In this document: in pieces, positions 22,698 through 26,970 of the stretch
Layout of the letters: each line of letters begins with the position of its first letter
Position numbering within the stretch: position 1 is the first letter of the stretch
Origin: Chloracidobacterium thermophilum B
GTDB taxonomy: Bacteria; Acidobacteriota; Blastocatellia; Chloracidobacteriales; Chloracidobacteriaceae
NCBI RefSeq assembly: GCF_000226295.1
Contig: NC_016024.1
Span: 603,501-667,500, forward strand
DNA length: 64,000 bases
Reading direction: 5' to 3'
Position numbers and translations under genes: made by a program
The notes under the pieces: model-generated
The model's database searches: none
Told to the model about the DNA's origin: nothing
The model's input: the letters and a program-made list of their open reading frames with translations, nothing else

Positions 22698-22727
22698 TTG
22701 AAAACCATTTTCGATTTGGGATAGACT
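22698..22727 (+). promoter_or_regulatory. Sigma-70-like promoter of the Cys/Lys-rich miniprotein
   Basis: TTGAAA (22698-22703), an 18-base spacer and TAGACT (22722-22727) lie 31 bases before the GTG start and 10 bases after the NHL gene stop. This gives the small gene its own transcription start. Confidence 0.55.
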
Positions 22728-22758
22728 GGTGACAGCTTTCACCCAAGGAGCTGTGGCC

Positions 22759-22848
22759 GTGGTCATCTGCCGCCGTAAACGCAAGGACAAGTGCTGTAAA
22801 AAGTTCAAAAAGTGTGGCAAGCACTGCAAGGGCTGCCCGCGTCTGTAG
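22759..22848 (+). CDS. 29-residue Cys/Lys-rich miniprotein
   Basis: A GTG start with an excellent ribosome binding site (AAGGAG, 22745-22750, 8-base spacing) opens 29 codons ending in TAG. Of 29 residues, six are Cys (4, 12, 13, 19, 23, 26), one is His (22) and thirteen are Lys or Arg. The core CCKKFKKCGKHCKGCP has the density of a metal-binding knuckle. It may bind zinc, iron or copper, or use its charge to bind nucleic acid. A promoter lies directly upstream. An in-frame GTG at 22753 is too close to the ribosome binding site. I do not recognise the family with certainty and the gene is shorter than most annotation cut-offs. Confidence 0.62.
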   Translation: MVICRRKRKDKCCKKFKKCGKHCKGCPRL

Positions 22849-22937
22849 GCGGCTTTGTCTGGCTGCCAGCTTTGTCTGCTGCCAGCGCAGCTTCCCGCTA
22901 ACGCCCTACGTCGCGCCCCGCGCCGGAAAATCGGGAT

Positions 22938-22972
22938 AAAAAAACCGGGTACAGGAAAGCCTGTACCCGGTT
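22938..22972 (-). terminator. Intrinsic terminator of the TonB-dependent receptor gene
   Basis: A perfect 13-base stem (22943-22955 with 22960-22972, loop AAAG). On the minus strand it is followed by a T-run (A7 at 22938-22944 on the plus strand). It lies about 30 bases past the receptor stop codon. Confidence 0.92.
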
Positions 22973-23001: not shown

Positions 23002-26000
23002 CTAGAACCGCACCTTCAGGCTGAACTGCATGATGCGGGGTCCGCCCACCGTATTGGTGATCTTGCCAAAATCGCCCGAATCCTGGAGGTCGTTACCCGG
23101 CAAGGCGAAGTTCACGTTGTTGAAGACATTGAAAATGTCCCAGCGGAACTCAATCCCGACGCGCTCCGTGACCAAGGTGTTCTTCGCCAGACTGAAGTCC
23201 ACCCGTTTCTGGAACGCTCCCCGCAGGACATTGCGCCCCAGGTTGCCATATCCGCCAAGGGGCGAAGCCAGGGCGGCCAGGTTGAAGAACTGCTCGGTTG
23301 GCTCAGGCCCACGCCGCCGCAGGTCGCTGATGGTTGCACCGGGCGCGAGGTTGGGACGCCCAAAACCCGGACGGAACAAGCCCCCGGAACCAAGCCGCAG
23401 ACTCGTGAAGTTGGCGCCGTTGGTACCAACAGAGGTGATTTCCGGTTCGGAGGAAAAGATGCTGAAGGGGGCGCCGGACTGCACCTGGACGAAGGTCGAA
23501 AAGGCCCAGCCCTTGACGAACCGGTTGTTTGAGCCAAAGGTCGGGAAGTCATAGACGACGGTCGCGCTGAAGCGGTGCGTCCGGTCGAAGTCAGACGGCC
23601 CGCGATTGGCGCGCAGATTGCGCGGGTCGCCCTGTGCGACGAAACCGACGTTGGGGGCATCCGGCCGCGCGTTCCCGGCCGTGCTGCCAGGGTCAGCCGA
23701 CATGTCGTCAATGGATTTCGACCACGTGTAGGCCGCAAAGTAGTTCAGTCCGCCGTACGACTCGTTGAAGCCCAGCCGCTGCTGCGTGGTCAACTGCAAC
23801 GAGTGGTAGATCGAGCTGGCCGATGAGGTCAGCAAAATGGCTTCGGGGATGTTCAGCCCCAGGTAAAAGCCACGGGCCTCGAACGGCAGCACCGAGCCGG
23901 CAGCATTGGCCACGTTGAGGTCCATGGTGCGCCGTGGATCGCCCACGGGGAACGCCGGGTTGGGAAAACCAAAGGCGCGTCCCATACCACGCTCCCGCGC
24001 CGTCGCCCCCGGATTGAGGGGGCCATTGGGGCTGCCAGCGGCAACGTAAGCCCGGTTGAAACGCTCATAAATCAGGTCCGGCGTGCTCGGGTCATTCATA
24101 TCGAACACCGTGTTGAGAATGAGCGCCTGCAACAGCTTCGTACCTTTGGTGCCGATGTAGCGGGCTTCCACGATCCAGTTCTTGCGCAGTTCATACTGCA
24201 CACCGAGATTCCACTGCTGGATGTAGGGCGTGCGCAGCCGGCGGTCAACAGCGCGGAATTCAAAGGTCTCGGCGACGTTGCCGAAGAAGGGCTGGCCCGT
24301 CGCCGGGTCAATCGGGTTGAGCGAGCCGTCCGCCTGGCGCGTGACACCCGTGCCATCCCGAATCTGGTACGTGCCGGTAGCCCCGGCTGTGCGCACCACG
24401 CGCAGACCGGGAATGCCCTGTGCCGGGATACCGGTCAGGAACTGGAAGAAGGGACGATTGGGGTCCTGCTGTGAAAAGGCCGTGGTGAACGGCACGTTGC
24501 CGGGCGGCGCCGTGACCTCGATCTCCCGCAGGTAGGGATAGTTGCTGAACACCGTGTTGATGAAGGCCGCCGACGGACGGTCATAGAAGAACCCGTAGCC
24601 GCCGCGCACCACGAAGCGCCCGCTGTCAAAGGGCGTCCAGGCAAAACCGATGCGTGGGGCGAAGTTGTTGCGGTCATCGTTGATGGTGCTGCGGCTGTTG
24701 GCGCGCACCGAGCGGTCAATGGATGTGTCAATGGCCGCAAAGCCGGTTGGCTTGGCATTCGAGGGAACGACAAAGCCAGTGATGATGTTGTTCGGGTCGG
24801 TCACCAGGTCGGGGTAGAAGTTGCCAAAGCGCCCCCGCTTTTCACTCGGTGTTCCGAAGTATTCGTACCGCACGCCGTAGTTGAGGGTGAAGTTGTTGGT
24901 AAGGCGCCAGTCGGCAGCGGCAAACAGGCTCACGTCGAAGAAGCGGAAGTTCTTCTGGGTAAACCCGTACTGCGTGTCGGCTTCCGTGACGCGCCCAGCC
25001 AGAAACTGGGTGAAGTTTTCGAGTTTCTCGAATTCGATTCCCTGTTCTTCGGGCAGGTCGGTGTCAAAGAAGTGGCGCTTGAACTCAGCGCCGAAGCGGA
25101 AGGTCTGGTCGCCTTTGACCCAGGTCAGGGTATTGAAAAGCGAATAGGTGTTCTGGAGCCGCTTGTTGAAGGCATCGTTCGGCCCGTTGATGGAGAAGTT
25201 GGAAGCGCGTGTCACGATGCGGGGCAGCCGGAAGCTGTTCGTCCCGGAGTCGAAGATGGAAGCCGGGTTGAAGACCTGAAGGCTTGGTGCATTGAAGGTG
25301 CGCGCAATTTCATCGGGCTGCACCAGCAGGGGGGTGTCCAGGGCGCGGGAGTTGCGCAGCCGGAAGTAGCCAAAACGGAACTCGTTGATGAGGGTGGGCG
25401 AAAACGTGTGGACATCCGAGATGGCCACGGAGTAGTTCTGGTCGGCCCGGCGGATGGTTGCCGGCGAAGCAAGGTTCGTGGGGGCCGTAAACGGATCGAA
25501 GCCGGGGAAGTCCGCAAAGAAAAACACCCCGCTCAACCGGTTGTTGTTGGCAATCTGCCAGTCTATGCGGGAGTTGACCTGATCCTGGGTAAAGTTTGCC
25601 GGCTGGACGATCCGTTCCTGAAGCATGGGGTTGCCACGGGTGCCGCCAGCAGGCCCGGTATTGACGTTGCGCGTCGTGCCCGTGGCGCTGTTCGTGAACG
25701 TTACCGTGACATTGTTGCCCGTGACGTTGGTCGGCAATCCGGGCAGTCCACTGCCGCTGTCCGTTCCTATGAGACGGGCATTGGGCCCGGGGGTCGGAAT
25801 GAGAAAGCCCCCCGTGATCGGATTACGCCGGTTGAGCAGGTTAAGCGCCACCGGGCTGATTTCCGACGGCAGGAGATTCAAGCCCGGATTGAGCTGGTTG
25901 ACAGCGGCGGCAATCCGGGCAGCCGACCGGTCACTGCCCACCAGCGCCAGAAACTGCGGCAGGACGGTAATGCTGCTGGCCGTCGGGACGAAAGCCGTGC

Positions 26001-26970
26001 TGGCCTGCGTCCGCTGGTAACCTCCAAAAAAGAAAAGCCGATCCTTGCGAATCGGTCCGCCAATGGCAAAACCACCTTCATTGCGCCGCGCGCGGGGGCG
26101 CTCAATGCCATCCCGGTTGAAGAAGAAGTCGTTGGCGTTGAAGATTTCGTTCTGGATGTAATGATAGCCGACACCGTGAAACTCATTCGTGCCACTCTTG
26201 GTGACGAGCTGGAAGTTGCCGCCCCCGGAACGTCCGGTCGAAGCGTCATAGAGGCTGGTTTGCAGCTTGACTTCCGAGAGGGTTTCCGGCGCCGGCGAGA
26301 TGTTGCCATCCAGCGAGCCTTCATTGCTGGTGATGTTCGTGGCATCAATGCCATTGAACTGCAAGCTGGTGCTTGTCGTGCGCGTGCCGTTGACGGCCGG
26401 TGAGACGTTGCCGTTGCCGTTGATGGAAACGGGCGGAAGATCGGCCGCGACGCCTGCTTCCGTCGAGAGCAGGTGGGTGAAGCTGCGCGTCGAGGTGGGC
26501 ACTTTCGTCAGTTGCTCGGCGTTGATCTGGCGAAAGGTCGCGGCGGTGGTCGTCACCACCTGCAACGGGACATCCTCAGTGATGGTAATGGTTTCGCTGA
26601 TGGCGCCGGTTTCGAGTTTGACATCAATCGTCCGCGGCACAGCCGCTTCGACTTCCACGCCCCGGCGGTCAAGTTCCCGGAATCCATCCCGGCGGTAACT
26701 GACCTGATAGATGCCGGTCGGAAGCACGGGGATAAGCCACCGGCCGTTGTTGTCGGTCTGTACGGTGCGCTCCACACCGGCGTCTGATTTGACCGTGACG
26801 GTGACACCCGGTAGCGCCGCGCCACTGGCATCCTGGACGACACCACCCAGACTGCCGGTGGCGCCCACCTGGGCCGGTGCCATATCCCATGCGCCCAGCG
26901 CCATGACCACCATGCCAATGGTGAGACACAGCACGCGCGATAGCCTGCGAGGCAGGTACTGCCTGAACAT
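23002..26970 (-). CDS. TonB-dependent receptor, Oar-like, with carboxypeptidase-regulatory domain
   Basis: 1322 residues. A signal peptide ends near PAQV (about 34). A carboxypeptidase-regulatory-like beta sandwich (about 38-120, GSLGGVVQDASGAALPGVTV) is followed by a plug-like region (about 125-280, with INAEQLTKVPTSTRSF and the long NGTRTTSTSLQFNGID stretch). A very long beta barrel ends in the outer-membrane signature of a C-terminal Phe (MQFSLKVRF). This architecture is greatly expanded in Acidobacteriota and also seen in Myxococcus Oar; substrates are often oligosaccharides, peptides or siderophores and cannot be read here. A GAGGAGG ribosome binding site lies 7-13 bases before the ATG. 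The leader has a terminator-like hairpin at 27008-27029. It is monocistronic by its 3' terminator. Confidence 0.92.
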   Translation of the reverse strand: MFRQYLPRRLSRVLCLTIGMVVMALGAWDMAPAQVGATGSLGGVVQDASGAALPGVTVTVKSDAGVERTVQTDNNGRWLIPVLPTGIYQVSYRRDGFRELDRRGVEVEAAVPRTIDVKLETGAISETITITEDVPLQVVTTTAATFRQINAEQLTKVPTSTRSFTHLLSTEAGVAADLPPVSINGNGNVSPAVNGTRTTSTSLQFNGIDATNITSNEGSLDGNISPAPETLSEVKLQTSLYDASTGRSGGGNFQLVTKSGTNEFHGVGYHYIQNEIFNANDFFFNRDGIERPRARRNEGGFAIGGPIRKDRLFFFGGYQRTQASTAFVPTASSITVLPQFLALVGSDRSAARIAAAVNQLNPGLNLLPSEISPVALNLLNRRNPITGGFLIPTPGPNARLIGTDSGSGLPGLPTNVTGNNVTVTFTNSATGTTRNVNTGPAGGTRGNPMLQERIVQPANFTQDQVNSRIDWQIANNNRLSGVFFFADFPGFDPFTAPTNLASPATIRRADQNYSVAISDVHTFSPTLINEFRFGYFRLRNSRALDTPLLVQPDEIARTFNAPSLQVFNPASIFDSGTNSFRLPRIVTRASNFSINGPNDAFNKRLQNTYSLFNTLTWVKGDQTFRFGAEFKRHFFDTDLPEEQGIEFEKLENFTQFLAGRVTEADTQYGFTQKNFRFFDVSLFAAADWRLTNNFTLNYGVRYEYFGTPSEKRGRFGNFYPDLVTDPNNIITGFVVPSNAKPTGFAAIDTSIDRSVRANSRSTINDDRNNFAPRIGFAWTPFDSGRFVVRGGYGFFYDRPSAAFINTVFSNYPYLREIEVTAPPGNVPFTTAFSQQDPNRPFFQFLTGIPAQGIPGLRVVRTAGATGTYQIRDGTGVTRQADGSLNPIDPATGQPFFGNVAETFEFRAVDRRLRTPYIQQWNLGVQYELRKNWIVEARYIGTKGTKLLQALILNTVFDMNDPSTPDLIYERFNRAYVAAGSPNGPLNPGATARERGMGRAFGFPNPAFPVGDPRRTMDLNVANAAGSVLPFEARGFYLGLNIPEAILLTSSASSIYHSLQLTTQQRLGFNESYGGLNYFAAYTWSKSIDDMSADPGSTAGNARPDAPNVGFVAQGDPRNLRANRGPSDFDRTHRFSATVVYDFPTFGSNNRFVKGWAFSTFVQVQSGAPFSIFSSEPEITSVGTNGANFTSLRLGSGGLFRPGFGRPNLAPGATISDLRRRGPEPTEQFFNLAALASPLGGYGNLGRNVLRGAFQKRVDFSLAKNTLVTERVGIEFRWDIFNVFNNVNFALPGNDLQDSGDFGKITNTVGGPRIMQFSLKVRF

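Follow-up and report, generated by a model that had tools for sequence, protein, structure and literature searches.

The ferric-siderophore reductase FhuF holds a [2Fe-2S] cluster through an unusual set of ligands, C-C-x10-C-x2-C (Cys 244, 245, 256, and 259), and its gene is derepressed by low iron via Fur (PMC8068687). The Escherichia coli protein, as read from the MG1655 genome, has the C terminus RRTCCQRYRLPDVQQCGDCTLK (in a longer stretch, ...VRRTCCQRYRLPDVQQCGDCTLK), and the C termini of other FhuF proteins follow the form RR.CC[LIV]R...C..CP. Two further systems bear comparison: bacterioferritin-associated ferredoxin (Bfd), a small [2Fe-2S] protein involved in iron release, and HemP/HmuP, encoded by small, Fur-regulated genes within heme-uptake operons. 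The gene described here, which encodes a 29-residue protein in Chloracidobacterium, recalls each of them in part.

The genome of this hot-spring phototroph comprises two contigs and 3.70 Mb; the window, that is, the whole 64-kb stretch of DNA analyzed, corresponds to its interval C1:603501-667500. The features of the locus are as follows.

22698..22703, + strand: −35-like hexamer TTGAAA (direct reading and promoter scan)
22698..22714, + strand: Fur-type operator TTGAAAACCATTTTCGA, a 17-bp inverted repeat that overlaps the −35 (conservation; same palindrome at iron genes)
22722..22727, + strand: −10-like hexamer TAGACT (promoter scan; TA..CT kept in six of the six congeners compared)
22745..22750, + strand: ribosome-binding site AAGGAG, 8 nt 5' of the start
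22759..22848, + strand: 29-aa Cys/Lys-rich protein with GTG start and TAG stop (orthologues, purifying selection, FhuF_C-like motif)
22848..22867, + strand: weak terminator-like hairpin directly 3' of the stop (mechanical match only)

The promoter, AAGGAG site, GTG, ORF, and composition are all as the initial annotation had described them. By direct reading, the spacer between TTGAAA and TAGACT is 18 nt; the product, MVICRRKRKDKCCKKFKKCGKHCKGCPRL, contains 6 Cys, 1 His, and 13 basic residues (9 Lys and 4 Arg) in 29 aa. The TTGAAA-18-TAGACT site was the sole match in a promoter scan of 601 bp, against 0.2 expected from shuffles. A mechanical ORF caller began the gene at a GTG at 22729, yielding 39 aa, but four congeners have an in-frame stop two codons 5' of the GTG equivalent to 22759, so 22759 is the true start. 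The window contains a single short ORF with the pattern CC-x8..10-C-x2-CP, and 60 block shuffles contained none. In Chloracidobacterium the gene stands alone and is not in an operon with any iron gene: an NHL-repeat-like gene lies on one side, and on the other a convergent gene for an outer-membrane beta-barrel protein with a CarboxypepD_reg domain (PF25183). A strong hairpin with a T-run on the − strand (window 22943-22972) is the likely terminator of this convergent gene (23002-26970).

Comparison with relatives strongly supports the 29-residue ORF as a genuine, separately promoted gene, as had been proposed. Orthologues are present in all six congeners (the G001 copy is cut by a contig end inside the gene), in two members of the same family (G008 and G007), and in further Blastocatellia; none was found in G009, also of this family, and the spread across Acidobacteriota is patchy, with matches in 14 of 396 genomes at E 0.001. 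Weak homology matches without the four-Cys motif were dropped as chance. The dN/dS of the ORF is about 0-0.2, with synonymous change near saturation and a core hardly altered: we counted 5 synonymous and 0 nonsynonymous changes between G000 and G004, and 12 and 4, respectively, between G000 and G005. The GTG start and the reading frame are fixed within the genus, and the ribosome-binding site reads AAGGAG in five of six cases and AGGGAG in G004. Whether relatives share a conserved frame had been named as a point on which the gene would stand or fall; they do, and the gene stands. A gene this short, below gene-calling limits, is easily missed.

Seven residues are invariant in the alignments (K11, C12, C13, G20, C23, C26, and P27), giving a conserved core, KCCKKFKKCGKHCKGCP, with the pattern K-CC-K-x-[FY]-...-C-x2-C-P; the high Lys content is likewise conserved. 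Because C4, C19, and H22 vary among orthologues, the conserved site is a Cys4 rather than a Cys6-His arrangement.

The −35 hexamer recognized by the initial annotation sits within a conserved 17-bp inverted repeat, whose form in the genus is TTGAAAAC(C/T)(A/G)TTTTCG(A/G), and whose core hardly varies across six Chloracidobacterium genomes; the G008 operator is near-identical (TTGAAAACGAATTTCAA). A whole-genome search of G000 for TTGAAAAYNNTTTTCRA returned four places at ≤1 mismatch. The site at the miniprotein gene has 0 mismatches; the others lie upstream of a TonB receptor-HemS-HmuT-like heme operon (C1:1615821), 90 bp before feoA-feoA-feoB (C2:656192), and 41 bp before a 65-aa ORF (C1:691600). 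Another TonB receptor in G000 is preceded by a palindrome with 2 mismatches, ATGATAATCATTTTCAA. Two-mismatch sites inside coding genes (such as L084 and L085) were discarded, and only palindromic sites 5' of genes were used. The heme-uptake operon (L098:1-5338) combines the Fur box with genes for the TonB receptor, HemS (PF05171), and an HmuT-like binding protein. The 65-aa ORF (L097:2142-2336; C1, about 691641-691835), MTFSPAVDIRIYVTEWGDVRIETPHWRHTLPPADF..., appears from its sequence to be under Fur-box control and belongs to no Pfam family; it is homologous (16 of 26 residues identical) to a 72-aa ORF located two genes after the miniprotein gene in the heme cluster of G697.

In five congeners the operator pattern gave 42 matches, compared to 2 for a reversed-pattern control, and it precedes the miniprotein gene in each. 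Among the other sites examined, it precedes feo (G002, G003, G005, and G006) or TonB receptors (G002 and G005). In G004, the C2 site is identical in sequence to the G000 feo site, and about 420 bp separate the C1:1247117 site from a PepSY gene. Since the same palindrome stands before feo, the heme-uptake operon, and TonB receptors, we regard it as a Fur-type box, and Fur control of the miniprotein gene is well supported by these sequence comparisons. Fur itself is presumably the protein that binds the palindrome; the source genome has three Fur-family genes (PF01475). Fur-like boxes also precede the miniprotein gene in other genera (G008, G034, G007, G018, and G791 and, further up, G011); for the nine non-operonic members with their own upstream region, the Fisher combined p was ~7e-5, with a consensus of our own choosing.

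Gene neighborhoods in relatives also point to iron. TonB receptors adjoin the miniprotein gene in G008, G014, G034, G697, G718, G791, and G872. The gene lies 110 bp before the receptor in G008; 119 bp after it in G014, with fur nearby; and 172 bp before it in G034, where the cluster also contains a PKHD-type hydroxylase and a second TonB-receptor-like gene. In G697 it lies 18 bp after the receptor, in the order heme oxygenase-receptor-miniprotein-two small ORFs-ChaN; in G718 it lies 12 bp after the receptor and directly before HemS; and in G791 it precedes the receptor, which is followed by a PepSY protein. At least 6 TonB-adjacent cases in 13 would arise by chance with a probability of ~5e-6, given an assumed rate of 2% per random gene. 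A gene for an Fe/Mn superoxide dismutase is divergent from the miniprotein gene in G007. G018, G717, G659, and most members of a longer form (below) lack a clear iron neighbor. Directly 3' of the miniprotein in the heme oxygenase/TonB receptor/ChaN cluster lies a 69-aa protein (L092:4009-4218) with a sub-threshold match to DUF6686.

Other Acidobacteriota classes encode a longer form, of 47-79 aa and more, in which a basic C-terminal tail accompanies the same motif (loci L152, L158, L153, L155, L156, L157, L052, and L054). G872 has two such copies, one of which follows the TonB receptor; the remaining longer-form copies have no clear iron context, which cautions against extending an iron-uptake role to all of the wider family. 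A pattern scan of GTDB contigs gave at least 584 matches, of which one, in Halochromatium, was confirmed by tblastn; the spread beyond Acidobacteriota is therefore under-sampled. A class-level survey around Halochromatium gave matches in 3 of 369 genomes. In Halochromatium, 24 bp separate a ferritin gene from the start of the miniprotein that follows it; the miniprotein frame has no stop and continues as a longer ORF that includes a hydrophobic stretch (L037:3995-4819).

The window protein alone matched no family in Pfam or NCBIfam, and its orthologues none in PHROGs; a PDB profile search and a literature search for the peptide string were likewise negative, as was tblastn of the consensus against plasmids, although BLAST masks low-complexity (Lys-rich) queries. 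AlphaFold, run on a 32-residue version together with 18 relatives, gave no informative structure (pLDDT 63.6). The resemblance that emerged was to the C terminus of FhuF. TIGR03950 ("siderophore ferric iron reductase") matched 3 of 10 members at E ≤1, the best orthologue at E 0.013, and PF11575 (FhuF_C) matched one orthologue at E 0.087; no member passed the curated cutoff of either model, the window protein itself gave no match, and no protein in the genus matched FhuF_C above its cutoff. When 18 miniproteins and 7 FhuF tails were compared profile to profile, the score was 18.19. The Lys-rich, low-complexity sequence may inflate the similarity to FhuF overall. When the Cys columns were held and the other FhuF columns shuffled, the mean score was 9.31 (s.d. 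1.91; maximum 18.05) and none of 200 permutations reached 18.19, so the likeness includes the aromatic residue at CC+3, the basic flanks, and the CP.

The miniprotein thus shares with the FhuF C terminus the vicinal CC, an aromatic residue at +3, basic flanks, and C-x2-C(-P) near the C terminus, and FhuF, too, is iron regulated and often encoded near TonB receptors. However, FhuF has ~262 aa, whereas the miniprotein has 23-29, is Lys-rich, and lacks the N-terminal helical reductase/siderophore-binding domain. The miniprotein spacing, CC-x8..9-C-x2-CP, keeps the order and position of the ligands, but its loop is shorter than the x10 of FhuF; the miniprotein is therefore not an FhuF, but it may work like the FhuF tail. 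Absent from Pfam, NCBIfam, PHROGs, and solved structures, the family is best filed as a putative free-standing, shortened FhuF_C-like module. The earlier suggestion of metal binding or a redox switch gains support and can be sharpened to an FhuF_C-like Cys4 motif in an iron-regulated gene; two residues of the stretch on which it laid stress, C19 and H22, proved not to be conserved. Its other element, proximity to a polyanion such as a nucleic acid, is conjectural, although the high Lys content is conserved. With Bfd the likeness is one of function, one gammaproteobacterial miniprotein homologue following ferritin; Bfd is about twice as long and has a different Cys pattern, and no search that we made identified it as a homologue.

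These data lead us to favor, with some reserve, a free-standing FhuF_C-like Cys module induced by iron starvation: a Fur-regulon gene for what is most likely a [2Fe-2S] or single-iron peptide that aids iron assimilation after uptake. A role in iron is very probable and much better supported than the type of cluster, on which we judge the chances even. The best-placed competitor, which we consider rather unlikely, is a cytosolic metal-binding peptide without redox activity, in which a Cys4 Zn or Fe(II) knuckle would serve iron-starved cells as a metallochaperone or small iron buffer. CC...CxxC would also suit Zn or mononuclear Fe, and an iron chaperone would suit the iron regulon and neighbors no less well than a redox carrier; yet the likeness to FhuF_C extends beyond the Cys residues to the aromatic at CC+3, the basic flanks, and the CP, and the FhuF motif holds [2Fe-2S] (PMC8068687).

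We think it improbable that the protein works in heme/iron uptake as a small basic regulator or adaptor that binds an acidic protein or nucleic acid, with Cys residues that are merely structural. This HemP/HmuP-like way of working would accord with the very high, conserved Lys/Arg content, with a gene that adjoins TonB receptors, hemS, and chaN, and with the homologue of the second small Fur-box ORF two genes after the miniprotein in G697. But the four Cys and the Pro never vary, in contrast to the drift at most other positions, as expected of a metal site; HemP lacks the Cys4 motif, and neither the miniprotein nor its orthologues matched HemP/HmuP in Pfam or NCBIfam. A secreted, defensin- or bacteriocin-like cationic Cys peptide, which would also be small, basic, and Cys-rich, is very improbable and was rejected: the protein lacks a leader or signal peptide, its gene is not flanked by genes for export or immunity, its four conserved Cys follow an FhuF-like pattern, and its gene has a Fur-type operator. 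A chance ORF, conceivable for a GTG-started frame of 29 aa under the usual gene-caller length limits, was rejected as scarcely credible, since conservation of frame, start, ribosome-binding site, and Cys across genera, with dN/dS about 0-0.2, effectively refutes it.

For the FhuF_C-like iron module, the following mechanism can be proposed. Iron-loaded Fur on the −35 palindrome would block RNA polymerase; iron shortage would lift Fur and allow the gene to be expressed. In the resulting cytosolic, basic peptide of 23-29 residues, Cys12, Cys13, Cys23, and Cys26 would hold either a [2Fe-2S] cluster or an iron ion, and the Lys/Arg surface could dock to an acidic protein, for instance a reductase, ferritin, or one that handles heme. 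Electrons might then be passed to, or iron taken from, Fe(III) compounds, heme, or ferritin, and the iron passed on; the step served would be iron release from heme, siderophores, or stores. Electron transfer and the partner are conjectural. The most specific version, an FhuF_C-type [2Fe-2S] protein of 23-29 residues, among the smallest natural Fe-S proteins, that carries electrons or transfers iron in heme/siderophore assimilation during iron starvation, we advance only tentatively.

The operator offers a sequence-based Fur regulon for Chloracidobacterium, and its miniprotein may rank among the smallest iron-handling proteins in nature. If our reading is correct, the vicinal-Cys cluster of FhuF would exist as an independent module of ~25 residues, a minimal, synthesizable system for the study of FhuF-type clusters. 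The family would also be a further case of conserved microproteins below annotation limits, and would supply a component hitherto missing from heme/siderophore iron release in those Acidobacteriota without FhuF.
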